This document shows positions 1,220 to 40,788 of a stretch of DNA of 45,527 nt, one piece after another. Location: contig JAUYKZ010000020.1 of assembly GCA_030704845.1 (NCBI GenBank), positions 1 to 45,527 on the forward strand, in the 5' to 3' direction. The notes beneath the pieces were generated by a model that saw only the letters and a list, made by a program, of their open reading frames with translations, made no database searches and had not been told where the DNA came from. The position numbers and the translations under genes are program-made. Each line of letters opens with the position of its first letter. Position 1 is the stretch's first letter. The stretch comes from an archaeon (GTDB lineage Archaea; Nanobdellota; Nanobdellia; Woesearchaeales; GW2011-AR9).

Positions 1220-4200
1220 TTACTGTTTATTAAACCAAATCTTAAACTCTTGCCCTTTAACGGAGAAAGAACTTTGATGTTCGTATTTTTCTTCAGGGGT
1301 AGTCGATACAATCACCATCTCTTCAGATCCAACTTTCTCTTTAATGTCGTTTTCATGATTTTGTAAAGCTTGCACCATCTCTTGTTCGGAACTAATGAAT
1401 AAAGAAATTCGATCAGTTTTTTGTAATCCTGCCTTTTTTCTACATTCTTGAACTTGTCTCATGACTTCCCGAGCAAATCCTTCCGCTTCAAGTTCAGGAG
1501 ACAATTCTGTATTCACATAAACCTGTCCTCCTTTGAAATCTGAACCCACGAAGGGTTTTGGAGCATCATTTTCAAAAGCAATCATTTCCGGAGTAACTGT
1601 AAATGTATTCTCGCTAACGGTAATATTAAACTCTTTATTCTCTTGGAGTTCTCGCATAACCTTTTCTGGATCTTCTGTGGCTAACATCTCGATAACTGTT
1701 CTTGTATTTTTACCAAAAGCTGGACCAAGTTTTGCATGATTTGGTTTTAAAGTAACTTTAGTTCCTTCCAGATGTTTAACAACTTTGATATTTTTAGTAT
1801 TAATTTGATTCATTAAAATTTCTTTTAATCTGTCAACAGCTTCCCAGACAGAATCTTGTGAACTTACGACAACTATCTCAGAAATAGGCCAACGTAATCC
1901 TCGTTTTGCTTTTTCACGGCCACTTAAAGCAGCTTGGATAATTAACCCGGCAGTATCCATATTCAATTCAAGTTTTTCTTGAATTAAATCTAAGTTAGCT
2001 TCCGGCCAAGAATAATGACTTAAACTATCTTCTTTTAATCCAAATTCTTCTTTAAGATTAAGGTACATAACTTCACAGATGAATGGTGTAACGATATGGA
2101 GCATCTTAAGACATTCTAAGACAACCGTTCCTAATGTATGTAATACGACTTCTTTTTCTTTTCTTGTTCCAATTGAACTTTTATCACGGACAATTTGAAT
2201 ATACGTTCGACTTAATTCAAGGAACAAATTTTCTAATGGAGAAATGATTTCATCAATTCGATATTCTTCCAATAAATTTGTTACTTTTTTAATTGTTGAA
2301 TTTAGTTTTGAAAGGATATATTTCTCTTCATCTTGTAATGAAGTAATCAAGGCATCATTGTCTAGTTTGAATGGATTAATTTCGTTCTCAGTAGAAAGTG
2401 AAATTAATAATTTATGAACATTCCAAAGGATTAATAATTGTCTTTCTTTAACAATACATTCGTCCCAACTGAAATTTATATCTTGACCTGCATTTGTTTG
2501 ACACATATAATATCTAAGAACATCAGCTCCGTGTTTCTCGATAAGTTCATATGGGGAAATGATGTTGCCTAAAGATTTAGACATTTTTACTCCGTGAACG
2601 TCGGTTACAAATCCGTTCATGTAAACATTCTTAAAAGATGGTTTATCAAAAGAAAGGAAAGAAGCTACCATCAACAAATTGAACCATCCTCGGATTTGAT
2701 CTTTTCCTTCTAAAATAAAATCGGCTGGAAATAATTTTTCTAACAGGTCTTTTCTTCGCGGATAATCTAAACAATTCCAGGATGCTGTTCCAGCATCAAT
2801 CCAAACATCTAATACATCGGGTATTCTTTTGTAGATTTTTCCATTTTTTTCGATAACAATTTGATCAATTTCAGGGATATGCATCTGTTCAATTTTTTCT
2901 CCAGATAATTTTTCTAATTCTTCAACGCTACCAACCACAATTACATCTCCGTCTTCAGCTTGCCAAATTGGCACCGGAGTTCCCCAATATCTTTGTTTAG
3001 TGATTGAATTATCGCGAAGATTTTCTAACCAGGATCTGAATGCATGTTTGGCTGTAATTGGGTTCCAAAGAATTTCCTCATTAGCTTTAAGCATTTTTTC
3101 TTTAAGATCTTCTACTTTGAAGAACCATTGTTTTGTCGTCCTGAAAATGACCGGTTCATGACTTCTTTCACCGTAAGGATAATCATGCGCATATGGTTCT
3201 TTTCCAACAATTGCATCAGCCTGATCTAATGCTTCAATGAATTTTTTATCATCAGACTTAGCTTTCCATCCAGTAAATTTTCCAAAATTTTCAAAATATC
3301 CTGCTTCATCAACACAATTAAATGGGGGTATACCGTTACGGTATCCAACTTCATAATCCTCTGGCCCACAGCCGGGAGCAGTATGAACTAATCCTGTACC
3401 TGCAGAATCGTCAACATATTCAGTTGATAGGAGGACAGTAAATAATCCCGGATTTTCTTGAAGATCTTTCGGTAATAATTCTAACGTATTTAATGGGTGG
3501 ATATATTGTTGTCCAGCCAATTCTTTTCCATAAACCTCTTTAATAATCTTAAATTCATCTTTATCAATTCCGGCTTTTTCTAGAACAATTTCTGCTCTTG
3601 ATTTTACTAGAATCCAAGTTTCTCCAATAAACCCGGCTCCGTTAACTTCCACTTCTACATAAGCTAATTCTGGATTTACCATCACTGCTAAATTTAAGGG
3701 GATAGTCCAAGGAGTTGTTGTCCAGATGATAAAAAACTTTTGAGGGTTATCTTTGTGTTGAAATTTAACGTAGATTGAAGTGTCACTTATTCGTCGGTAT
3801 TCTAATTCATGTTTTGCTACTGCTGTTTGTGTTGCGGCATCCCAATGCATGGTTCTTAATCCTTGATATACCCGATCTTTTTCGTAGGCGGTTTTAATCA
3901 ACCACCATTCGGCTTCCATAAATTCTTGAGTTATCGGTCGGTAAGGGTTTGTGAAATCAAGAGTTGCGCCTAATCGTGCAAAATCTATATCCATTTTTTC
4001 CATCATTTCTGTACAGAATAATTCACATTCAACCATAAACTTTTTAAGACCAAACTTAAGAATGTCTTCTTTATTTTCAAGACCTAATTTCTTCATTGTC
4101 TTTTGTTCAGTTGGCAAGCCATGCATATCGTATCCCATCCGATCCCAAACGTTATATCCGCGCATTCTTTTATAACGAAGAATAATATCTTTCAATGCCA

Positions 4201-4375
4201 TGTTCCAGGCATGTCCAAGATGAATTTGTCCGGAAGTATATGGTGGACCTTCTAGGAAATAGAATTTTTGACCGTTTTTATTTCTCTCTCTTAAAGATTC
4301 AACTATCTGTTTATTGTCCCAATGAGCAAGAATTTCTGGTTCAGCTTCTGCATGTTTATAAGTTGGAAATTTCAT
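1220..4375 (-). CDS. ileS: Isoleucyl-tRNA synthetase
   Basis: A class I aminoacyl-tRNA synthetase that charges tRNA-Ile in the cytoplasm. The 1051-residue length is normal for the archaeal/eukaryotic-type enzyme. The HIGH signature is HLGH at residues 52-55 and the KMSKS loop (VKMSKSLGN) lies near residue 595. Between them is the CP1 editing domain, including the GYDMHGLP and TTTPWT segments; KQRYWGTPVPIW is the usual motif before the second half of the active site. The C-terminal part is the helical anticodon-binding domain plus the extra archaeal C-terminal domain. A TATA-like box at 4409-4420 implies a short 5' leader. It faces the same way as the upstream sigma genes but appears to have its own promoter. 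Confidence 0.97.
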   Translation of the reverse strand: MKFPTYKHAEAEPEILAHWDNKQIVESLRERNKNGQKFYFLEGPPYTSGQIHLGHAWNMALKDIILRYKRMRGYNVWDRMGYDMHGLPTEQKTMKKLGLENKEDILKFGLKKFMVECELFCTEMMEKMDIDFARLGATLDFTNPYRPITQEFMEAEWWLIKTAYEKDRVYQGLRTMHWDAATQTAVAKHELEYRRISDTSIYVKFQHKDNPQKFFIIWTTTPWTIPLNLAVMVNPELAYVEVEVNGAGFIGETWILVKSRAEIVLEKAGIDKDEFKIIKEVYGKELAGQQYIHPLNTLELLPKDLQENPGLFTVLLSTEYVDDSAGTGLVHTAPGCGPEDYEVGYRNGIPPFNCVDEAGYFENFGKFTGWKAKSDDKKFIEALDQADAIVGKEPYAHDYPYGERSHEPVIFRTTKQWFFKVEDLKEKMLKANEEILWNPITAKHAFRSWLENLRDNSITKQRYWGTPVPIWQAEDGDVIVVGSVEELEKLSGEKIEQMHIPEIDQIVIEKNGKIYKRIPDVLDVWIDAGTASWNCLDYPRRKDLLEKLFPADFILEGKDQIRGWFNLLMVASFLSFDKPSFKNVYMNGFVTDVHGVKMSKSLGNIISPYELIEKHGADVLRYYMCQTNAGQDINFSWDECIVKERQLLILWNVHKLLISLSTENEINPFKLDNDALITSLQDEEKYILSKLNSTIKKVTNLLEEYRIDEIISPLENLFLELSRTYIQIVRDKSSIGTRKEKEVVLHTLGTVVLECLKMLHIVTPFICEVMYLNLKEEFGLKEDSLSHYSWPEANLDLIQEKLELNMDTAGLIIQAALSGREKAKRGLRWPISEIVVVSSQDSVWEAVDRLKEILMNQINTKNIKVVKHLEGTKVTLKPNHAKLGPAFGKNTRTVIEMLATEDPEKVMRELQENKEFNITVSENTFTVTPEMIAFENDAPKPFVGSDFKGGQVYVNTELSPELEAEGFAREVMRQVQECRKKAGLQKTDRISLFISSEQEMVQALQNHENDIKEKVGSEEMVIVSTTPEEKYEHQSSFSVKGQEFKIWFNKQ

Positions 4376-4408: not shown

Positions 4409-4420
4409 ATATTTAAAAAG
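4409..4420 (-). promoter_or_regulatory. TATA box for ileS
   Basis: CTTTTTAAATAT on the minus strand, centred about 39 bases upstream of the ileS ATG, predicting a leader of roughly 12 bases. It lies between the end of the sigma operon and ileS. Confidence 0.5.
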
Positions 4421-4439: not shown

Positions 4440-6059
4440 TTAGTCTAGAATAATTTCCTTCAATAATTCCTGTAATCTCGGATACTTCCCTAATTTAGCT
4501 TTTATTTTCTTTAATGCAACTGCTTCAATTTGTCTGATTCTTTCACGGGTAAGTCCATACTCTAAGGCAATTTCTTCTAATGTTTGATGTTCCCAGTTTC
4601 GTTTAGTCTCTCTTCTTTTATCTGGAACTCCTTCTTTCTTTTGATATGGTCTTAATCCAAATCTTTGTTCTATAATATCCTTTTCTCTAGGATTAAGAGT
4701 ATCTGATAAAATTTTGTCAAGTTGATCGCGGCTACTTTTTTTCTCAATTTCAGAGAATAATTTTTCAGGTAAATCATCTCTAATCAAATCTTTATAATGG
4801 GAACTGTTTTTACCATCGTAGGCGGAAGTATCTAATCTACTCTCTGGGTTTCCTGCTTGTAGAAGATAAGTTATTTCAAATTCAGTTTCATCTGTTTTTA
4901 GATCCCAATATTTTTGAAAATTATCTGCATTTAATGCAATTTTACTTCTAAAATCATCTAACATAATTCTCTTTCGTTTTGCAAAAATTTTCTCGAAGAT
5001 TTCTTCCAGAGAAGAATCTGGTGATAAATCTTTACATTCTTCTTTTAATCTTTCTAATGCATAAACTCTAGTAAGCTCTTCGGCTATATCACGCATAGTT
5101 GGTTTAGAACAAGTATCTCTTGTTAACTTTTCTCTAGTTTTAATAATTTCACGAATTTTTGCTTGAATATGTACCGGAATACGCACATCCCGGTTATGGT
5201 TTTGGTGATATCGATTTATTTCATGAATAATCCACCAAGAAGCATGAGTGGTAAACTTATTACTTCGTCTGTAATCAAATTTATCTACAGCTCTGATTAA
5301 ACCTATACTTCCGATTGAAAGATTATCTTCTTTATATCCTGCAATTCTTTTTACAAATCGTAGATTATAAGAGACAATTTCGTTACGTTTTGTTCTTATT
5401 CTATCTTCTAAATTATCGATGTATTCTATTTCACTCGCTAATTCTTTCACTTCTCTTCTTTTAATTATTTTAACAACATCTTCTGATTTCAATAGAGACA
5501 AACGGTGGTCACCATAATAAAACTGTTCCAAAACTGAACTGAATTCTTTCTTTGAGATTTCTTTTCTGCGATTATAAAGTTCATCTAGTCTTTGGCGTTT
5601 TTCAGAGTATTCTCCGTGAAGGTCTATCATAACTGCATAAAGAATTTTCTCGCCGTCTCTAGTTTTTAAAAGAGTTCTTACGAGGAACCTATTTCTGATC
5701 TCAGCAATATTTTCCATTGAAAAAACTTGCGGTTTATCTTCCGGAAGAGAAGATTCTGAAAGTTTGTGACAGTATTCTTTTTTTAATTCTCCGGAGTTCC
5801 GACTTATTTTTTGGAGTAATGTTTTAGTTTTTTCATGTTGTTCCCGAAATGATTCATAATTCTCATCAGATCTCTTTTTTTCAAGAGTTTCGCGAATTAT
5901 TTCAGATCCAAGAGATGTCTCCGCAACATATGCCAAAACGTGCCGATATCTTTCTTCTAATTCCTTGAATATTTCTATCTCTTCTTCTCGAGTTAGAATC
6001 CGGTGGTTTAGAACTCGAGTTTCGAGGTAATTTCTTTCCGGGTTTTCTATAAATATCAT
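4440..6059 (-). CDS. Sigma-70 family RNA polymerase sigma factor (first of tandem pair)
   Basis: A bacterial-type sigma factor in an archaeal gene context. Of 539 residues, 10-38 resemble region 1.2 (ILTREEEIEI), about 45-225 form a long charged non-conserved region, 225-297 are region 2 (SIGLIRAVDKFDYRRSNKFT, ASWW, VRIPVH), and 455-525 are region 4 with a textbook helix-turn-helix (TLEEIALEYGLTRERIRQIE). Both melting tryptophans are kept (W275, W276). The residues that read the -35 hexamer in bacteria are all present (R505, E506, R507, Q510). Those reading the -10 differ: H279 and N282 replace the usual Gln and Thr. The region between 3 and 4 is poorly conserved. It follows the second sigma gene by 28 bases and is probably co-transcribed. 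In archaea, promoter recognition is normally by TBP and TFB; this is not TFB, which lacks these motifs. Confidence 0.96.
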   Translation of the reverse strand: MIFIENPERNYLETRVLNHRILTREEEIEIFKELEERYRHVLAYVAETSLGSEIIRETLEKKRSDENYESFREQHEKTKTLLQKISRNSGELKKEYCHKLSESSLPEDKPQVFSMENIAEIRNRFLVRTLLKTRDGEKILYAVMIDLHGEYSEKRQRLDELYNRRKEISKKEFSSVLEQFYYGDHRLSLLKSEDVVKIIKRREVKELASEIEYIDNLEDRIRTKRNEIVSYNLRFVKRIAGYKEDNLSIGSIGLIRAVDKFDYRRSNKFTTHASWWIIHEINRYHQNHNRDVRIPVHIQAKIREIIKTREKLTRDTCSKPTMRDIAEELTRVYALERLKEECKDLSPDSSLEEIFEKIFAKRKRIMLDDFRSKIALNADNFQKYWDLKTDETEFEITYLLQAGNPESRLDTSAYDGKNSSHYKDLIRDDLPEKLFSEIEKKSSRDQLDKILSDTLNPREKDIIEQRFGLRPYQKKEGVPDKRRETKRNWEHQTLEEIALEYGLTRERIRQIEAVALKKIKAKLGKYPRLQELLKEIILD

Positions 6060-6087
6060 TTGTTATTTTTTATCGTTGTTTTTCTAT

Positions 6088-7611
6088 CTAGTTAGAAGTT
6101 TCCTCTAAAAATACGTTGTCGTCGTTGATATATGCTTCAAAAACAGCTCTTAATTCTGGGGCAACTTCCCGAAGTTTTTGAATTGCTTTTCTTTGAATTT
6201 GGTCAATTCTTTGTTTAGAAAGATTAAGTATCTCTGCGAGATCTCCAAGGGTTGTTTCAAGCTCGTTATCTGGTTTCTCTACTCCCCCCTTAACAACAGT
6301 TTTTCTTTTTCCACGAACAATTCCAATTCTGTAGCTGAGGACAAATTTTTCTCTTTCAGTTAAATATTCATCCATCATTTGATTTAATCTTTGATGAAGA
6401 ATTATTGCATCATATCTGTCAAATTCGATTTCGGCTTTAGGATCTGGGATGAAATCTCCTATCGTAGATCCGTCTTCTCCATTGTGCATTCTAACTGGCT
6501 TTTCAAGATTGACTGTTTGGTTCATTAAATCAAACAAATCGGGAACTTGTGTGGTAATTGCTTTTATCTGTCCATCTATGAATGGTCTAATCTCTTTTGA
6601 AGAGAATGAGTAAGGTCTACGAGATCCAGCTAGAGTAAATGTTATTTTAATTTCTCGTTCTTCTAGGTTTTCAACAGTAGAAAGAATTTCTTCTAATTTT
6701 GGAGATTCTGTTTCAAATAGAAATCCTTTGTCTTTCAATATTATTAAGATTTTTCTTCGAGTGTATTCCTCTGCGATATCCTGATAAGATGGTTCTTCTT
6801 CGTTTATCCTTTCTAAATTACTTTTTGCAGCACAGAACGCGTTATATTTTTCAATAACATTGCTTGGCTTTCTAATTGTGTCACAATTATCTTGGATATG
6901 TTTTTGGATAGATTGTTTAATCCACCAAGTTGGGTATGTTGAAAATTTAAATCCTTTACGATGATCAAATTTATCAATAGCTCTTAATAATCCAAAATAA
7001 CCCTCACCAAAGAAATCATCTGATTCAAAGAAGGTATTACTCTTTCTACCTACTTCATCTAAATTTTCTTCTTGCATTAAGATAGCATACTGGATGGCAT
7101 ATTTCCAAACTAACCGTAAGTTTCTTAAAGCAAATTCTTCCTTTTTTCGAGATATTCTCCGAGAACAAGAACGATAAATTTGAATAAACTCTTCGGCTTT
7201 AAGATTTCTTGTTTCAGAGTTGTCATCAACTTCAGTTTCAATTTGAGCATAGATCTCTGTTGCGAGTTCTTCAATTTTCTGTCTATCTACTTCAGTTTTG
7301 TTATCTGGGTGGAAATAATCTAAAGCCACTTTTTCAATAGATTCTTCACTTAACCTTTTTTCTAATCCTTGTTGTTTTTTCTTTCCTAATAACCTAGAAA
7401 AACGCTTTCTTAGATTTTCGTTATTTGGGGCAGCTTCGTTATCTTTTTTGTAATATTCTAATGCAGCTGAAAAAAGTCTTCGATAATATTCATCTATACT
7501 TTTTGATAAGGCAATCTCGCTTTCTCTATTAAGCATTGGAAGACCATCTTGTTTAATGACCTTACCTGTTTCTTTGTAATATTGGCGTGTAATTTCGTCA
7601 ACAGAATCCAT
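6088..7611 (-). CDS. Sigma-70 family RNA polymerase sigma factor (second of tandem pair, first in operon)
   Basis: A second complete sigma-70 protein, 507 residues from the ATG at 7611. The frame opens with a TTG at 7623, but the TATA box centred near 7640 puts the start site at about 7613, so the ATG at 7611 is the likely leaderless start. Numbering from that ATG, 2-36 resemble region 1.2, 161-251 are region 2 (GYFGLLRAIDKFDHRKGFKF, TWWIKQ), 373-393 match the sigma finger of region 3.2 (NGEDGSTIGDFIPDPKA), and 413-486 are region 4 (LSKQRIDQIQRKAIQKLR). W229, W230 and the -10-reading Gln (Q233) are kept. The -35-reading helix differs from the bacterial consensus (K466, Q467, D470), so it probably reads a different upstream element. 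The long non-conserved region is typical of group 1 and 2 sigma factors. Confidence 0.96.
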   Translation of the reverse strand: MDSVDEITRQYYKETGKVIKQDGLPMLNRESEIALSKSIDEYYRRLFSAALEYYKKDNEAAPNNENLRKRFSRLLGKKKQQGLEKRLSEESIEKVALDYFHPDNKTEVDRQKIEELATEIYAQIETEVDDNSETRNLKAEEFIQIYRSCSRRISRKKEEFALRNLRLVWKYAIQYAILMQEENLDEVGRKSNTFFESDDFFGEGYFGLLRAIDKFDHRKGFKFSTYPTWWIKQSIQKHIQDNCDTIRKPSNVIEKYNAFCAAKSNLERINEEEPSYQDIAEEYTRRKILIILKDKGFLFETESPKLEEILSTVENLEEREIKITFTLAGSRRPYSFSSKEIRPFIDGQIKAITTQVPDLFDLMNQTVNLEKPVRMHNGEDGSTIGDFIPDPKAEIEFDRYDAIILHQRLNQMMDEYLTEREKFVLSYRIGIVRGKRKTVVKGGVEKPDNELETTLGDLAEILNLSKQRIDQIQRKAIQKLREVAPELRAVFEAYINDDNVFLEETSN

Positions 7612-7634
7612 TGTAGTGCTCAAAACAGCCGGAA

Positions 7635-8409: not shown

Positions 8410-8418
8410 ATATAAAAA
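8410..8418 (-). promoter_or_regulatory. TATA box for the membrane winged-helix gene
   Basis: TTTTATATT on the minus strand, centred about 26 bases upstream of the ATG at 8388, fitting a leaderless mRNA. Confidence 0.55.
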
Positions 8419-8434
8419 ACTTGTCCCGAAACAG

Positions 8435-8577: not shown

Positions 8578-10377
8578 CTACCACCATCTTCTATCCTTAG
8601 ATCCTTTAAGGCCAAGAATTAGAAGGAAGATGACAACTGCAGCTAAGAATCCTTCTAAGCGGTATAACGTCTTTTTTGAGATACTTCCAATCATTACTGT
8701 ATCTCTAAATGTTTTTTCTTCTGGAAAATAAACCTCAAGTTCACTCATCTCTAATGCGTAATCTAAGTAAAGTAATGCGGTATATTGTTCTTCTTCTTGT
8801 AATGCAGAAGAATATTTGTAATAAGAATATCCTAATATTGGAAAGACCCCGTCATTACTATTTTCGGCAATAACTCTTTCAACGGCATGTTTCTTTTCAT
8901 TTAGAACATCTTGAACACTTTCGTTATTTAAACCAAATGAGGTAAGGATAGCACTAGAATCTCCTTTTGCTTGAGAGGCAGTAATCAAACAGAGTTCTAC
9001 TTCGTCATTATCTAAAGCTTCTCGAGCTAGGTTAATTTTTTCTCTAATCCCATTGATAAAAGTTGGACTTATGAAAAATTCTGCATATTGATATCTTTCT
9101 TCGGCTTCTGATATTTTTTGTAAGCATGTTTGTTGTAATGTTTGATTATCAAAGACGAATTTTTTTCCATCCATGGCAAAGAATTCCATCCAAGTTACAG
9201 CCGAGAAATATCTTTCTTCAGCATATGCTAAAAGAGAATAAGTGTCTTGTAATTCTGATGATGGTGGATCGTTAAGATATTTATCAATTTGTTGCTGGGC
9301 ATCTGATAACCTTTCTTTAACAATCATCATTGTTTGAAGATCAGAAATAGTTTCAATTGGTTTCTTGCTAACTTCCCCTTTAGTTTTCTTTACTTCTTCT
9401 TGAAGTTTAGTAAATAATTCTTCAACTTTACTTAACGATGGTTTTTGTTCTTTATAGAAACTATCCTTCAATTGAATATTTGAACCGAAACAGTAACTTG
9501 CAGCTGAATAAAAATCATTATTATAGCTAGCATTAATAGAATTCTCTAATCTTTTTTGCAACTGTTCATTAGTTTCATTATCAATCATTACATCTGATTT
9601 TGCTATTTCCTGTTCAATTTTTTCACGTCTTCCACATAAAGTTTCGGCAACCGTTTTCATGATTTCTTGATACTCTTCATCTTCTTCTAAGATAACCGGT
9701 TTATTGTTTAATTGTTCTCCGGTCAATTGAAATACTACTTCATCAATAGTAAGTACTTCTTCTACGGGCAAACTTAGATTTTGAATAGCATATTCAACTA
9801 AATTTAATTCTGATTCTTCACTATTATTATCTTCATTTTCTGAAATATCAGATGAACTTCCGGATGAACCTTTTGGAATGAGAACTTTTCCTAAACCAGC
9901 TTGAGCAGCAGCTTCTAGTTTTTCCTTAACTCCTCCAACAGGACCAACAATCCCTCCTGAATTAATTGTTCCGGTTACGGCTATATTTTGGTCATAATCT
10001 AAATCTAGAATTGCAATCGTAGTTAGGGCGGCTAAAGCGGCACCAGCACTTGGTCCCCCAATAATATTGGATTTTGCTCGTATGGTGTAAATAAAATCGT
10101 ATTTGTTACAGTTTAATTTGAAATGATTACAGGCAACTTCTTTAGCAAACCTAGTTGAGATTTGGGTGTCTAATCTTGTTAACGGAAATGTTTCCAGGAA
10201 TACTCTTCCGGTTCCTTCCCTTAATTCTAAAAGTAAATCTGCATCGCTACCCGTATATCCATCTTCATCTTCATAAACAGCAAGTAATTTTAATTGATAT
10301 ACTTCACCTTCTTGAGCAACAATCGAGGGTATTAAAGATATTAGGATTATTAATAGAATTATCCCACTTTTTTTCAT
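8578..10377 (-). CDS. Membrane-anchored Lon-like serine protease (S16 family)
   Basis: 599 residues. An N-terminal hydrophobic segment or signal peptide (1-21) is followed by a Lon-type proteolytic domain with the Ser-Lys dyad: S110 in GGPSAGAALA and K151 in GPVGGVKEKL, 41 residues apart (43 in E. coli Lon). There is no AAA+ ATPase domain. The middle is a long acidic helical region, and a C-terminal membrane helix (about 570-590, LEGFLAAVVIFLLILGLKG) ends in KDRRWW. With an N-terminal signal and a C-terminal anchor, the protease domain should face outside the cell. The substrate is unknown. A TATA box near 10404 gives a leaderless start. The neighbours are two other surface proteins. Confidence 0.9.
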   Translation of the reverse strand: MKKSGIILLIILISLIPSIVAQEGEVYQLKLLAVYEDEDGYTGSDADLLLELREGTGRVFLETFPLTRLDTQISTRFAKEVACNHFKLNCNKYDFIYTIRAKSNIIGGPSAGAALAALTTIAILDLDYDQNIAVTGTINSGGIVGPVGGVKEKLEAAAQAGLGKVLIPKGSSGSSSDISENEDNNSEESELNLVEYAIQNLSLPVEEVLTIDEVVFQLTGEQLNNKPVILEEDEEYQEIMKTVAETLCGRREKIEQEIAKSDVMIDNETNEQLQKRLENSINASYNNDFYSAASYCFGSNIQLKDSFYKEQKPSLSKVEELFTKLQEEVKKTKGEVSKKPIETISDLQTMMIVKERLSDAQQQIDKYLNDPPSSELQDTYSLLAYAEERYFSAVTWMEFFAMDGKKFVFDNQTLQQTCLQKISEAEERYQYAEFFISPTFINGIREKINLAREALDNDEVELCLITASQAKGDSSAILTSFGLNNESVQDVLNEKKHAVERVIAENSNDGVFPILGYSYYKYSSALQEEEQYTALLYLDYALEMSELEVYFPEEKTFRDTVMIGSISKKTLYRLEGFLAAVVIFLLILGLKGSKDRRWW

Positions 10378-25696: not shown

Positions 25697-27175
25697 ATGA
25701 CAGATAAATCAATTTTAGTGCGAAAATATTTTGAAGAAAATAAATTTGTAGCAAGCAATATTCAATCTTTTAATCATCTTCTTGAAAAAGGATTACAGGA
25801 AGTAATCGAAGAAAACAAAGAAGCTGAACCAACTATTATTCCACATAATATTGAGAAATTCAAAATCAGATTTGGTAGAATCACCGTTGGAAAACCAGAA
25901 ATTACCGAAGCAGATGGAAGTAAAAGACCAATTTATCCAATGGAAGCTCGGTTGAGAAAAATAACTTATCATGCTCCAATCTTTCTTGAAGTAAGTACTT
26001 ACATTAATGATGTACAAAGAGAAAATTTTGTAACTCAAGTTGGAAAGATGCCAATTATGCTTAAGAGTAAATTTTGTAATTTAGATGCATTAAATAGAGA
26101 AGAATTAATGAAATTCGGTGAAGATCCATCTGATCCAGGTGGATATTTTATAATTAATGGTACTGAAAGAACCATTGTTAATGTAGAAGATCTTGCTGCA
26201 AACAATTTCATGATTGAAGAAGCTAAGGGCGGAGAATTCTCTGGAAGATTCTTTGCAGCTCGTGGTTCTTACAAAATACCTCATTCTTTTGAGAAAAAGA
26301 AAGATGGAATCTATTACATGTCTTTCACTAGAGTAAAACAAATGCCAATAGTAATTGTTCTAAAAGCATTAGGAATGGTAAAAGATGAAGATATCATGAA
26401 AGCTATCTCTACTGAGAAAAGTTATGATGAAATGATTCTTAATTTATACGAATTCGTTGACATAAAAACTCAGGAAGATGCGATAGATTTTATTGCACGA
26501 AGAGTTGGTGCTGGTCAATCTAAAGAAGTTAGAATGGAAAGAACTGTTGACATTCTAGATAGATATTTACTCCCAAATATTGGTGTTGACTTAAATTCAA
26601 GAGCAGAGAAAGCTAAAAATATTGGTAAGATGCTCAAACGGTTAATTGATGTTTATCAAGGAACAAGAGCTCCAGATGATAAAGATCATTACATGAATAA
26701 ACGTATTAGGATGAGTGGTGATCTGTTATTAGATTTATTTAGAGTTAACTTTAAAGTTTTAGTTGGAGATATTCTCTACAATTTCCAAAGAATTATCAAA
26801 AGAGGAAAACTTCCTTCAATAAGAGTTATTATCCGTGATAAATTATTGACCTCTAGATTATATTCTGCTATGGCAACCGGTGAATGGGTTGGTGGAAGAC
26901 AAGGGGTATCTCAAAGAATGGATAGATCAAATTATTTATCTATGGTTTCACATTTACAAAGAGTTGCAAGTCCTTTAGCGACTTCGCAAGAAAACTTTGA
27001 TGCACGAGCATTACATTGTACTCATTTAGGAAGATTATGTCCGATTGAAACTCCAGAAGGTACTAACATTGGTCTTCGTAAAAATTTGGCAATGCTATGT
27101 TCATTATCACAACGTGCAGACGAAAAAGAAGTAATGGAAAAATTACAAAATCTTGGGTTGAGGGAGACAATATAA
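25697..27175 (+). CDS. rpoB2: RNA polymerase subunit B'' (Rpo2 N-terminal part)
   Basis: 492 residues, the N-terminal half of the second-largest subunit. It covers the protrusion and lobe (GKMPIMLKSKFCNL, GGYFIINGTERTIVNVEDLA) and ends after the fork region (SRLCPIETPEGT-type motif, here GRLCPIETPEGTNIGL). The split into B'' and B' is normal for many archaea. The stop codon is one base from the start of rpoB'. Confidence 0.97.
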   Translation: MTDKSILVRKYFEENKFVASNIQSFNHLLEKGLQEVIEENKEAEPTIIPHNIEKFKIRFGRITVGKPEITEADGSKRPIYPMEARLRKITYHAPIFLEVSTYINDVQRENFVTQVGKMPIMLKSKFCNLDALNREELMKFGEDPSDPGGYFIINGTERTIVNVEDLAANNFMIEEAKGGEFSGRFFAARGSYKIPHSFEKKKDGIYYMSFTRVKQMPIVIVLKALGMVKDEDIMKAISTEKSYDEMILNLYEFVDIKTQEDAIDFIARRVGAGQSKEVRMERTVDILDRYLLPNIGVDLNSRAEKAKNIGKMLKRLIDVYQGTRAPDDKDHYMNKRIRMSGDLLLDLFRVNFKVLVGDILYNFQRIIKRGKLPSIRVIIRDKLLTSRLYSAMATGEWVGGRQGVSQRMDRSNYLSMVSHLQRVASPLATSQENFDARALHCTHLGRLCPIETPEGTNIGLRKNLAMLCSLSQRADEKEVMEKLQNLGLRETI

Positions 27176-27176
27176 T

Positions 27177-28982
27177 ATGGCAGATGTATATCTTAATTCA
27201 AATATTGTAGGCGTTGTAGATAATCCATTAACTTTTGTTTCAGATATCAAAGATCTTCGTCGTAAAGGAGCAATTCAAATTGACGTTAATGTTTTCTTTA
27301 ATGAAGAAGCAAATGAAATTTCTATTTATACTGATGAAGGAAGAGCAAGAAGACCATTAATTGTTGTTAAAGATGGTAGATCATTATTAACTGAAAAACA
27401 TCTTGATCAATTGAAAGGTGGCGAATTATCTTGGATGGATCTTGTTAGACAAGGGGTAGTTGAATATTTAGATGCAGCAGAGGAAGAAAATTCTTTGATT
27501 GCTTTCAATGATATTGAAATTACCGTTGAACACACTCATCTGGAAGTTAGTCCGGGAGTAATCACGGGAGTTACAACTTCTCTTGTTCCTTTTGGTAATT
27601 ACTTATTATCTACTCGTTTAAATGGTGGTTCTAAAAACCAGAAACAAGCATTAGGATTTTATGCAGCTAATTATCATTTAAGATTAGACATGGATGCAAA
27701 TATTTTACATTATCCTCAAAATCCTTTAGTTAAAACAAAAATTCATGATGTAATTGATTACTCAGAACATCCTTCTGGGCAGAACATGGTTGTAGCAATC
27801 ATGTGTTACGACGGTTACAACATGGAAGATGGGGTTATACTTAACAAAACTTCAATCCAGCGTGGACTTGCAAGAAGTACTTACTTCCACCCAATTTCTG
27901 CTGAAGAATTACGTTATTCTGGTGGATTAATTGATGAAATTTCTGTCCCAGATAAAGATGTTAAGGGATATAGAAGTGAACAGGATTACCGATTCTTAGA
28001 AACAGATGGTATTGTTTATCCAGAAGCGAAAGTTGACGAAGGAGATGTTATTATTGGAAGAACAAGTCCTCCTAGATTCTTAAGTAGCATGGATGAATAC
28101 AATTTATCTGCAGCAACACGCCGTGAAAGTTCTTTAAATCTTAAACATGGCCAGAAAGGTGTTGCCGATTTAGTTATTCTTACTGAAAATGAAGAAGGAA
28201 ATAGATTAGTTCAGGTAAGATTAAGAGAAGAAAGAATTCCAGAGATTGGTGATAAATTTACCAGTCGTCATGGTCAAAAAGGAGTTACCGGTATTTTAAT
28301 TCCTCAACAAGATATTCCGTTCTCTGCATCAGGAATTGTTCCAGACCTAATTTTCACACCACATGGTATTCCTTCAAGGATGACTATTTCACATTTAATT
28401 GAATTGATTGGGGCAAAAGTAGGAGCTCTATCTGGAAGATACATTGATGGAACTTTATTCCAAAGTGAATATGAAAAAGATTTAAGAAAAGAATTACAAG
28501 AACGCGGTTTCCGTGAAGATGGAACAGAAGTATTCTATGACGGAAGAACCGGTAAACAAATGCTTGCTCGTATTTATGTTGGTAACATGTATTATCTTCG
28601 TCTTAGACACATGGTTGCGAACAAAATGCAATCTCGTGCACGTGGACCAATCCAGCTTCTTACTCGTCAGCCAACTGAAGGTAAGGCTAAGGAAGGAGGT
28701 CTACGTTTAGGAGAGATGGAGAAGGATACCTTTATCGCGCACGGTGCTTCTCTTTTACTTAAAGAAAGATTTGATTCAGATCAAGTAGTTATTCCTATTT
28801 GTGAAAAATCTGGATTGATGGGTTATTATGATCTTCGTCAAAATGGAAAAGCTATCTCGCCATTGTATGGAGAAAACTCCGAGATGTCAGAAGTAGAAAT
28901 GAGTTATGCCTTTAAATTATTACTTGACGAAATAAGAAGTATGGGAATTTACGTAAAATTAAATTTGGAGAATAAATACTAA
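27177..28982 (+). CDS. rpoB1: RNA polymerase subunit B' (Rpo2 C-terminal part)
   Basis: 601 residues containing the hybrid-binding, wall/flap and anchor domains. The characteristic motifs are NMEDGVILNK, the basic stretch KFTSRHGQKGVTG, and the C-terminal ARGPIQLLTRQPTEG with RLGEMEKD. In sigma-using bacteria the matching flap holds sigma region 4; whether this flap could do so is not visible from motifs. One base separates it from rpoA'. Confidence 0.97.
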   Translation: MADVYLNSNIVGVVDNPLTFVSDIKDLRRKGAIQIDVNVFFNEEANEISIYTDEGRARRPLIVVKDGRSLLTEKHLDQLKGGELSWMDLVRQGVVEYLDAAEEENSLIAFNDIEITVEHTHLEVSPGVITGVTTSLVPFGNYLLSTRLNGGSKNQKQALGFYAANYHLRLDMDANILHYPQNPLVKTKIHDVIDYSEHPSGQNMVVAIMCYDGYNMEDGVILNKTSIQRGLARSTYFHPISAEELRYSGGLIDEISVPDKDVKGYRSEQDYRFLETDGIVYPEAKVDEGDVIIGRTSPPRFLSSMDEYNLSAATRRESSLNLKHGQKGVADLVILTENEEGNRLVQVRLREERIPEIGDKFTSRHGQKGVTGILIPQQDIPFSASGIVPDLIFTPHGIPSRMTISHLIELIGAKVGALSGRYIDGTLFQSEYEKDLRKELQERGFREDGTEVFYDGRTGKQMLARIYVGNMYYLRLRHMVANKMQSRARGPIQLLTRQPTEGKAKEGGLRLGEMEKDTFIAHGASLLLKERFDSDQVVIPICEKSGLMGYYDLRQNGKAISPLYGENSEMSEVEMSYAFKLLLDEIRSMGIYVKLNLENKY

Positions 28983-28983
28983 A

Positions 28984-31557
28984 ATGAAACGACTCGTAAG
29001 AAAAAAAATTAGCAGTATCTCTTTTGGAATTTTTTCACCAAAACAAGTTGTTGAAGCTTCGACAGCGAAAATTGTAACTCCAGAATTATATGATCGTGAA
29101 GGATACCCTGTTGACGGCGGTTTAATGGATTTAAGATTAGGAGTTATTGATCCTGGTCTTCGTTGTAAAATTGATGGCGGTAAATTAAAAGAATCCTTTG
29201 GTCATTTTGGTTACATTGAACTTGCTCGCCCAGTTGTACACATTAAATTTGTTAGAACTATTTTAGATATTTTAAGATCAACCTGTAAATCTTGTGGTCA
29301 TATTTTAATTCCAGTTGAGAATGCAAAAAGATACATGGCTATTCTTGATAAAGTTGGAGAAGAACTTGGTTTCGAAGCACGAAGAAGAAAGATTAAAGTT
29401 ATTGTAGCAAAATACAGAGCTAAAGATAAATGCCCTCATTGTTCTGCTAAACAAGGAAAAATAAAATTATCCAAACCTTACAATTATTATGAAGACGAAA
29501 TTCGTTTAAGTCCAATTGAAGTTCGTGCACGTCTTGAAAAGATTCCCGAGGAAGATTTACCAATCTTTGGATTTAAATCGGGAGAATTTAGACCAGAATG
29601 GTTAGTTCTTACAATAATGCAGATTCCACCGGTAACTATGCGTCCTAGTATCACTCTAGAATCTGGAGAAAGATCTGAAGATGATTTAACTCATAAATTA
29701 GGAGATATCGTGCGGATTAATCAGCGATTATTTGAAAATATTAATGCTGGTGCACCAGAAGTAATCATTGAAGATTTATGGGACTTATTGCAATATCATG
29801 TTACAACGTTCTTTGATAATGCTATCGCTCAACTCCCTCCTGCTAGACATCGTGGTGGTCAAGTTTTGAAAACGTTAGCGAACAGAATCAGCAGTAAAGA
29901 CGGTAGGATTCGTCACAACCTTGCTGGTAAGAGAACAGATTTCTCGGCACGTACAGTTATCAGTCCAGATCCATTAATTGGAGTAAACGAAGTAGGAGTT
30001 CCAGAATTAATGGCTCAAAGTTTAACAGTTCCAGAAAGAGTTACCGAATGGAACAAAGAATATTTAAGAAAATTTGTGGTGAATGGGCCAAAGAAATATC
30101 CTGGAGCTAATTATATTATCAAGCCTGATGGAAAACGTAAAACAATTACTAATGAAACTAAAGATGAAATTTTAGAAGAGTTAGATGTTGATTACGTTGT
30201 AGAAAGACATCTTCTTAACGGAGATATTGCTCTTTTCAACAGGCAACCATCCTTGCACAGAATGAGTATGATGTGTCACCGAGTTAAAGTTTTACCTGGT
30301 AAAACGTTCCGTTTAAATCCAGCTGTATGTAATCCATACAACGCAGATTTCGACGGTGATGAGATGAACCTACATATCCCTCAAACTGAAGAAGCAAGAT
30401 CTGAAGCATTAATTTTAATGTTAGTGGAAACTCAATTAATGAGTCCAAGAAGCGGTTTAAGTATTGTTGGATGTATTCAGGATGCAATTACTGGTAACTA
30501 TTTGTTAACTAAAGAGTTAGTTATGTCTAGAGAAGAAGCAATCAATCTATTATTTTCTTGTGGCGTTCAAGATTTCTCTACTTTGGCAAATAAAGAAAAA
30601 GTTAATGGGAAGGAAATCTTCTCAGTGCTTCTTCCAAAAGATTTCAACTTTAAAGGAAAAGATAAGAGCGGAAATGACGTTGAAATTGTTAACGGAGAAT
30701 TAAATTCCGGAATCATGGATAAAGCTAACCTTGGTCAAGAAAGCGGTTTAATGTTAAGAAACATCTATGAAAAATATGGCCCATCTTACACTGCAACATT
30801 CCTTGGACAAATTTCTAAACTGGGAATTGGTGTACTTTCACGTAGAGGATTTTCAATTGGTTTAGCTGACGTAGATTTGTCTGACGAAGCAATGGAAGAA
30901 ATCAGAGAAGTAGTTAGAAAAGCTGAAGAAGAAGCTTACAAATTAATTGACATGTATTCTGAAGGTAAACTAGAAGCATTACCTGGAAGATCATTACACG
31001 AAACTGTAGAATTAAGAATTCTTGAAGCTCTTAACAAGGCAAGGAATAAAGGTGGTGACATTGGAATGCGTCAAACTAAAGAAAATGCTGCTTTAGTGAT
31101 GGCAAGAAGCGGTTCCAGAGGTAACGCTTTATATATCGCTCAGATGACTGCAGTTGTTGGTCAGCAATCACTTCGTGGTAAACGTATTAGTTCAGGATAC
31201 AAACAAAGAACATTGTCCTATTTCAAGAAAAACGATTTAAGTCCAGCAGCTAGAGGATTTATTAAAAATAATTTCAAAAGTGGTTTAACTCCATACGAAT
31301 TTTTCTTTGGAGCAATGACTGGAAGAGACGCTTTGATGGATACTGCATTACGTACGCCTAAATCTGGTTATTTGTATAGAAGATTATCTAACGCAATGCA
31401 AGATCTTAAAGTGAATTATGATGGTACTGTTAGAGATGCTAGTAGCAAAATTGTTCAATTTGTCTACGGTGAAGATGGTCTTGATGTTTCAAAAACTAAA
31501 GGCGGAGAACTGGACGTACAGAAAGCTGTTGAATCAGCTATAGAGGGCAAAAAATGA
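28984..31557 (+). CDS. rpoA1: RNA polymerase subunit A' (Rpo1 N-terminal part)
   Basis: 857 residues. It contains the catalytic magnesium-binding loop [10 protein letters not shown] at 453-462, the clamp zinc site (CKSCGHI ... CPHCSAK), the [10 protein letters not shown] motif and the bridge-helix region. The clamp-helix segment around residues 255-290 ([20 protein letters not shown]) is archaeal in style. It overlaps rpoA'' by four bases (ATGA). Confidence 0.98.
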
Positions 31558-32696
31558 AAAAAGAACATCAAGATATTATAGATCAATATTCAGAAATATT
31601 GCCTCCTTATATCCTTGGACAGATTGATCAGTATTTACCAAGTTCATCTACTAAAGTCCAAGTAGAAAAAGTTTTGTCTAAGGTTATTGAAGCTTTTGAA
31701 ACTGCTAAAGTTAATCCAGGAGAATGTGTAGGTTTAGTTAGCGCAGAAAGTATTGGTGAACCAGGTACCCAGATGACACTTAACACTTTCCATTTGGCTG
31801 GGGTAGCAGAAGTACAAGTTACTACGGGTCTTCCAAGAATTATCGAAATTTTTGATGCTCAGAAATCTATCAAAACTCCGATGATGGAAATTTATCTTAA
31901 AGATTCACATAATTCCGTAGACGCGGTAAGAAAATTTGCAGCAAAAATTAAATCTACTCTTTTCGGAGAATTTGCTAAAGAATATTCTTTAGACATTTTT
32001 GATCAAAAATTGCAAGTTTTATTAAATAAAGAATTCCTTGCAGATCACGAAATTACCGCAAAAGATTTAGCTAAATCTATTAAATTAAAATCTAAAGGAT
32101 TTGTGATTGTTGTCGAAGATGATAGAATTATTTTCGAACATAAAGGCAAACCTGAAGAAATTAAAGAATTATATAATCTTAAAAACAAAATCAGACTAGT
32201 TAAAGTTAAAGGACTTAAAGGAATTACTCAAGTTCTACCTGTTAAACGAGGAGAAAAGTATTTGGTATTAACTGCAGGTACAAATCTTAAAGACGTGTTA
32301 GATTTACCAGAAGTTGATGTAACCAGAACAACTAGTAATGACATTCATGAAGTATACTCTGTTCTTGGAGTAGAAGCAGCAAGACAAATAATCATTAATG
32401 AAGTTTTCAAAGTTATTGAATCACAAGGTTTGAATGTTGATTTACGTCATATCATGCTTGTAGCTGATATCATGTGTGTTGGTGGAAACATTAAAGGTAT
32501 AACTAGGTATGGAGTTGTTAGCGAGAAAGCAAGCGTACTTGCAAGAGCTTCATTCGAAACACCAGTTAAACATATTATTAATGCTGCACTAGAAGGAGAA
32601 GTGGATTATCTTACTTCAGTAGTTGAAAATGTGATGATTAATCAACCTGTACCTTTAGGAACTGGGTTACCTGGTTTGATAACTAAACTTAAATAA
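31554..32696 (+). CDS. rpoA2: RNA polymerase subunit A'' (Rpo1 C-terminal part)
   Basis: 380 residues with the trigger-loop region ([20 protein letters not shown]), the [13 protein letters not shown] motif, the cleft/jaw, and a C-terminal [20 protein letters not shown]. Start overlaps the end of rpoA'. The A'/A'' split is universal in archaea, a strong sign of the host domain. Confidence 0.98.

Positions 32697-37449: not shown

Positions 37450-40788
<3,339 letters not shown>

Follow-up and report, generated by a model that had tools for sequence, protein, structure and literature searches.

How could a sigma-70 factor operate in a cell whose RNA polymerase (RNAP) is archaeal? This question is raised by a contig of 45,527 nucleotides from a Woesearchaeales archaeon (GenBank assembly GCA_030704845.1, contig JAUYKZ010000020.1; hereafter the window), on which two tandem open reading frames of the minus strand, S1 and S2, encode proteins of bacterial sigma type. 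We therefore asked whether these proteins are genuine sigma factors of the archaeon, how their locus arose, and which polymerase they might serve.

Pfam searches revealed region 2 (PF04542) and region 4 (PF04545) above the gathering cut-offs in both proteins, with E-values of 2.1e-8 (Sigma70_r2) and 3.3e-14 (Sigma70_r4) for S1 and of 1.6e-11 and 2.8e-7, respectively, for S2 (6088-7623). Region 2 is responsible for core binding, -10 recognition and melting, and region 4 contains the -35 helix-turn-helix. A preliminary description of the locus had assigned regions 1.2, 2 and 4 to both proteins and named the Pfam models r1_2, r2, r3 and r4 for verification; r2 and r4 pass in both, and r1_2 and r3 match neither. 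A purpose-built HMM detected region 1.2 significantly in S2 (1.6e-5) and only marginally in S1 (0.02), so that this part of the assignment is supported for S2. The best match of both proteins in a phmmer search of PDB sequences is SigA/RpoD (E ~1e-25), and the top PDB matches given by Foldseek for AlphaFold models of moderate confidence (pLDDT 69 for S1 and 75 for S2) are all sigma-70/SigA (E = 5.5e-12 and 4.5e-11). The melting tryptophans described earlier are present in both proteins (SWWII in S1 and TWWIK in S2). The sigma finger reported for S2 is clear in the phmmer alignment to the PDB, where GEDGSTIGDFIPD aligns with EDDSHLGDFIED, and is weak or degenerate in S1. The -35 helix, of the RERRQ type, is intact in S1 and partly changed in S2. 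S1 and S2 are thus genuine members of the sigma-70 family encoded by a Woesearchaeota archaeon. They share regions 2 and 4, region 1.2 and the finger in part, fold, melting tryptophans and, in S1, the -35 helix with the bacterial group 1/2 factors (RpoD/SigA, RpoS), but differ from them in an identity of only ~20-25% in structural alignments, in a partly lost docking motif, in residing in a cell with an archaeal RNAP, and in having no apparent region 1.1, as both proteins begin close to region 1.2.

Table 1. Features of the sigma locus and the polymerase genes in the window
Feature	Position	Strand	Remark
IleRS, bordering the sigma slot opposite c3	1220..4375	-	box TTTTTAAATA at 4410-4419
S1, sigma-70 family protein, 539 aa	4440..6059	-	Pfam, phmmer, Foldseek
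S2, sigma-70 family protein	6088..7611	-	507 aa from ATG 7611; 511 aa from TTG 7623
TATA-like box of S2, TTTTTATAAA	7636..7645	-	leaderless spacing: first T of TATAAA 30 nt upstream of ATG 7611
c3: from an apparent signal peptide via extracytoplasmic domain and TM to a cytosolic DUF7343 winged helix	7660..8388	-	read from sequence
TATA-like box of c3, TTTTTTATA	8411..8419	-	23-31 nt upstream of c3 ATG; read from sequence
Protein with a Lon-type protease domain, conserved upstream of c3	8578..10377	-	
RpoB'', RpoB', RpoA', RpoA'', archaeal RNAP large-subunit genes	25697..32696	+	same contig as S1/S2

The source genome also encodes a third sigma on another contig (C21), a short 256-aa frame (L028:8337-9053) with regions 2, 3 and 4. 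Its neighbours are a TatD-family nuclease and a RelA/SpoT HD-like protein, and the same genes adjoin a FliA-like sigma in another genome (G005, L031).

The bacterial type of the proteins is the sole point in favour of an assembly chimera or bin contamination, an explanation whose probability we consider negligible. The sigma genes lie on one 45-kb contig with archaeal RNAP genes, their flanks are kept in independent assemblies, and their codon use and GC resemble those of the genome and the neighbouring genes. The source genome (1.02 Mb) is 97% complete with 0.57% contamination, and the named relatives of loci carrying c3, the gene next to S2, are Candidatus Woesearchaeota/Nanoarchaeota MAGs. 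Furthermore, sigma and archaeal RpoA' share a 1.47-Mb contig in G022 and a 256-kb contig in G044, and sigmas are present in two single-contig genomes, G179 (scored 100% complete) and G267 (96%). Given such carriers, contamination does not explain the spread of the sigmas either. We accordingly rejected a chimeric or contaminant origin, in agreement with the earlier view that this is not a bacterial contig. A complete archaeal RNAP had also been ascribed to the window; its four large-subunit genes were confirmed, its completeness was not. A search for the archaeal factors, likewise suggested there, found one TBP and one TFB in the genome, plus one TFE. Two further observations on the window are an RpoB encoded by separate genes for RpoB'' and RpoB' (25697-28982) and a DNA gyrase B with an intein (37546-40788).

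Sigma70_r2 matches are carried by 40 of the 49 family genomes, by 100 of 242 in the order and by 127 of 371 in a sample of the phylum, and their presence or absence varies within genera. The spread had thus been greatly understated as a few DPANN single-cell genomes. Sigma-70 in Woesearchaeota is a published phenomenon: in the part of Castelle et al. 2021 (PMC8204110) on fam00359, sigma-70 is described as prevalent alongside TBP, TFB and TFE, with mis-binning excluded, no anti-sigma factors found and the mechanism unclear. That passage does not treat promoters, individual residues, the polymerase side, how the locus developed or a tree of origins. New here are the archaeal TATA promoters, the multiple acquisitions, the variable slot, and slowly evolving docking and -35 sites set against archaeal features of the RNAP.

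Comparison with relatives revealed a conserved gene order of Lon-like gene, c3, a slot and IleRS, in which the slot holds 0-3 sigma genes or unrelated cargo. It is empty in nine loci (L090, L091, L092, L099, L100, L105, L107, L112 and L117), and in L089 it is occupied by unrelated genes with an apparent AbrB/PIN pair. Because the slot may be empty, sigma-filled or cargo-filled, the S1/S2 tandem is one state of a variable slot, and c3 is its ancestral neighbour and no dedicated sigma partner. As a candidate anti-sigma or partner, c3 was rejected: it immediately precedes sigma in many relatives, yet in others it adjoins IleRS with no sigma between. The archaeal IleRS flank was correctly described. 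In G040, a tandem sigma pair adjoins an intein-containing archaeal primase whose small and large subunits are fused (L041:10846-13665).

The sigma genes appear to be expressed in the archaeal manner. In upstream regions genome-wide, TATAA/TTTATA peaks 21-30 nt before start codons, with 41 TATAA matches at the peak against ~8 per bin in the source genome, a leaderless archaeal pattern. Upstream of 57 archaeal sigma genes, 69 TATA-like words fall at -25 to -32, against 1-12 per 8-bp bin elsewhere. To judge from these motifs, the sigma genes carry native archaeal TATA promoters, mostly their own. In the window, boxes occur at S2, c3 and IleRS, consistent with the archaeal TATA promoters noted previously around the sigma genes. 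The box 30 nt upstream makes ATG 7611 a more likely start of S2 than TTG 7623. No TATA-like box of that kind precedes S1, which is therefore probably read together with S2.

The archaeal sigmas are scattered in a 69-row tree among RpoD-, RpoS-, FliA- and sigma-32-like bacterial sequences. Since the tree has many long branches and its bootstrap has not settled, we claim only multiple origins; going by its starred branches, no fewer than 5 changes are needed for the family label and 8 for the rest, which suggests that archaeal sigmas were acquired several times. S1 and S2 fall into different, weakly supported groups, and the tree gives no sign of a recent duplication linking them. With a slot of 0-3 sigmas or other cargo, a promoter of its own for S2 and this weakly supported separation, the dedicated two-gene operon proposed earlier is doubtful. 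The proposal of a maintained system is supported: several related genomes likewise carry sigma genes in tandem, an archaeal promoter of its own precedes most sigma genes, and the sigmas of a congeneric pair show a dN/dS of 0.21-0.37 (0.09 for c3). These ratios are rough, since dS for the sigmas is 0.8-0.94, near saturation. In two congeneric genomes, orthologous sigmas are 53-70% identical where RpoA' is 95% identical. A first scan of genome contigs with S2 as query gave no match. A single-sequence scan found no close phage source for S2, and the viral sigmas retrieved with a profile share 24-45% identity, a level to be expected within the superfamily; a close phage source was thus rejected.

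Among known systems, the sigma-like MzaA of the MZA anti-phage system is the best NCBIfam match of S1 (7e-38) and a PADLOC match of S1 and S2. However, S1 and S2 score 130.9 and 106.7 bits against an NCBIfam cut-off of 800, and no MZA partner genes were identified beside them. MZA defence was rejected, the likeness arising only through the shared sigma domain.

Some sigmas in relatives are linked to unusual genes. A C-terminal domain of ~80 aa is common to three large co-directional genes (L029:11065-13446, L032:4946-7126 and L052:12405-16514), one of which also has an N-terminal GHKL ATPase. These genes adjoin RpoD-like sigmas in G022 and G044 and lie near the tandem sigmas of G223; elsewhere among 242 genomes the domain occurs once, in G222, with no sigma within the 2.8 kb covered there. 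A 190-aa C-terminal domain, found in no other of the 242 genomes, is shared by L051:10061-11305 and L030:9504-11444, which immediately follow sigma in G005 and G223, of two families. As the seed genes were picked as sigma neighbours, it is the shared domain, not the adjacency of the seeds, that counts as evidence. S1 and S2 have no such domain-sharing neighbour. Two unusual frames were also seen, namely a single 1502-aa ORF in which sigma region 2 occurs three times, region 4 once and HTH-like stretches several times (L217:2196-6704, G042), and a 1032-aa ORF combining a helicase C-terminal domain with sigma regions 2 and 4, a possible frame artefact near a contig end (L218:563-3661, G047).

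In bacteria, D403, Q406, E407 and N409 (E. coli sigma-70 numbering) contact the beta' coiled coil; these residues are typical of RpoD-like sigmas and variable in others. The motif is degenerate in S1, which keeps only D403 (Q406S, E407I and N409S), and partly changed in S2, which keeps D403 and E407 (Q406G and N409Y). The conserved docking residues of a bacterial-type holoenzyme-forming sigma are thus incomplete in S1 and S2, whereas most archaeal relatives keep them: among 56 archaeal sigmas, D403 is retained in 91%, Q406 in 68%, E407 in 73% and N409 in 61%, and the -35 helix residues at ~80-89%; a sample of 12 bacterial sequences gives similar values. When site rates were fitted to the archaeal sequences only, core-docking sites proved to evolve slowly, both in 52 archaeal sigmas (p 0.002) and in the subset of 19 linked to the slot (p 0.002). 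The -35 helix sites are slower still (p 0.0003 in the 52; also slow in the 19) and are the slowest of all, with a mean rank of 0.06. D403 and Q406 could be kept for structural reasons.

The polymerase side differs. In 30 clean RpoA' sequences (31 aligned, one misaligned and disregarded), the host coiled coil departs from the bacterial one, with altered charges at residues that hold sigma in bacteria, by R275I, R281E, R293E, E295L, R297D and A302H in 29 or 30 of 30; of the residues compared, only R278 and Q300 are common to both, and the host residues equal those of Thermococcus except at 281. Moreover, the RpoB' of the window has no counterpart of the flap-tip helix region in E. coli beta. No bacterial-like adaptation was thus seen in the coiled coil of the host RNAP. 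Nearly all genomes have one RpoA', two matches in G002 looking like fragments on separate contigs, so a second, bacterial-type polymerase was not seen. TTGACA-N16/18-TATAAT shows no excess upstream of genes in the two genomes scanned (5 against 8.8 shuffled in the source genome, G000; 7 against 7.9 in G022), a crude test by which a small regulon would be missed. It is therefore unlikely that the sigmas form an ordinary holoenzyme of bacterial style with the host polymerase, and the puzzle of the partner polymerase is sharpened, because the host enzyme has neither of the two main sigma-docking features.

We tentatively favour the reading that S1 and S2, domesticated by the archaeon, are accessory initiation or regulatory factors acting on the archaeal RNAP through altered contacts at a small set of promoters, with a probability of about 0.45; the weights given to all readings are our judgement. 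Region 4 would read a -35-like element, and region 2 would grip and melt a -10-like element. The host's single archaeal RNAP would be recruited through contacts other than those made with the bacterial beta' coiled coil and flap tip, while the normal TBP/TFB/TFE system would work alongside and serve nearly all genes. We infer the action in initiation, the partner polymerase and the target promoters from the sigma regions and fold, the shared archaeal contig and its synteny, native promoters and codon use, the dN/dS ratios, the slow docking and -35 sites, and the single RpoA' in nearly all genomes. The changed coiled coil, the missing flap-tip helix and the absence of a -35/-10 promoter excess argue against action through altered contacts, as do the fast divergence of orthologues, unlike that of core machinery, and the lack of an anti-sigma reported by Castelle et al. 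2021 (PMC8204110).

The same mismatch with the host RNAP would suit sigmas that act as DNA-binding regulators off the polymerase. Free of an inhibitory region 1.1, region 4, perhaps with region 2, would bind bacterial-like sites and block or mark DNA, or act via TBP/TFB. S1 retains the -35 helix but has lost three of four docking residues, the -35 helix sites evolve slowest, and a number of relatives are large and carry additional HTH domains; yet D403 and Q406 are also among the slowest sites in most archaeal sigmas, and finger and melting tryptophans persist, leaving such a role possible but doubtful. It seems quite improbable that the sigmas target the bacterial polymerase of a partner, prey or bacterial mobile element and redirect transcription there. 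Their docking residues fit bacterial beta' and mismatch the host coiled coil, several bacterial sigma classes were repeatedly drawn upon, the sigmas evolve fast, and host genes have no matching promoters. Against this, no secretion signal or export route was seen, the bacterial docking motif is partly gone from S1 and S2 themselves, and cultivated DPANN have archaeal hosts according to PMC11291902. A status as accessory cargo is about as improbable; in this reading the sigmas would be bacterial genes that arrive again and again and decay, doing little or nothing for the archaeon that carries them. The variable slot, the patchy presence within genera and several degenerate copies would be expected of cargo; long open frames, purifying selection with constrained functional sites, own archaeal promoters and the 40 of 49 family genomes with sigma would not.

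Bacterial and archaeal initiation are regarded as separate systems that share one polymerase core. If the sigmas did target a bacterial polymerase, an archaeon would make bacterial-type sigmas from archaeal promoters and redirect the transcription of a partner or element. Lineage-wide, constrained sigma-70 proteins with archaeal promoters would represent a hybrid initiation system that arose in nature or else a tool for transcription across domains. Both possibilities are open to direct test, as opposite predictions follow from the polymerase (coiled coil and flap tip) and from the sigmas (docking motif and -35 helix).
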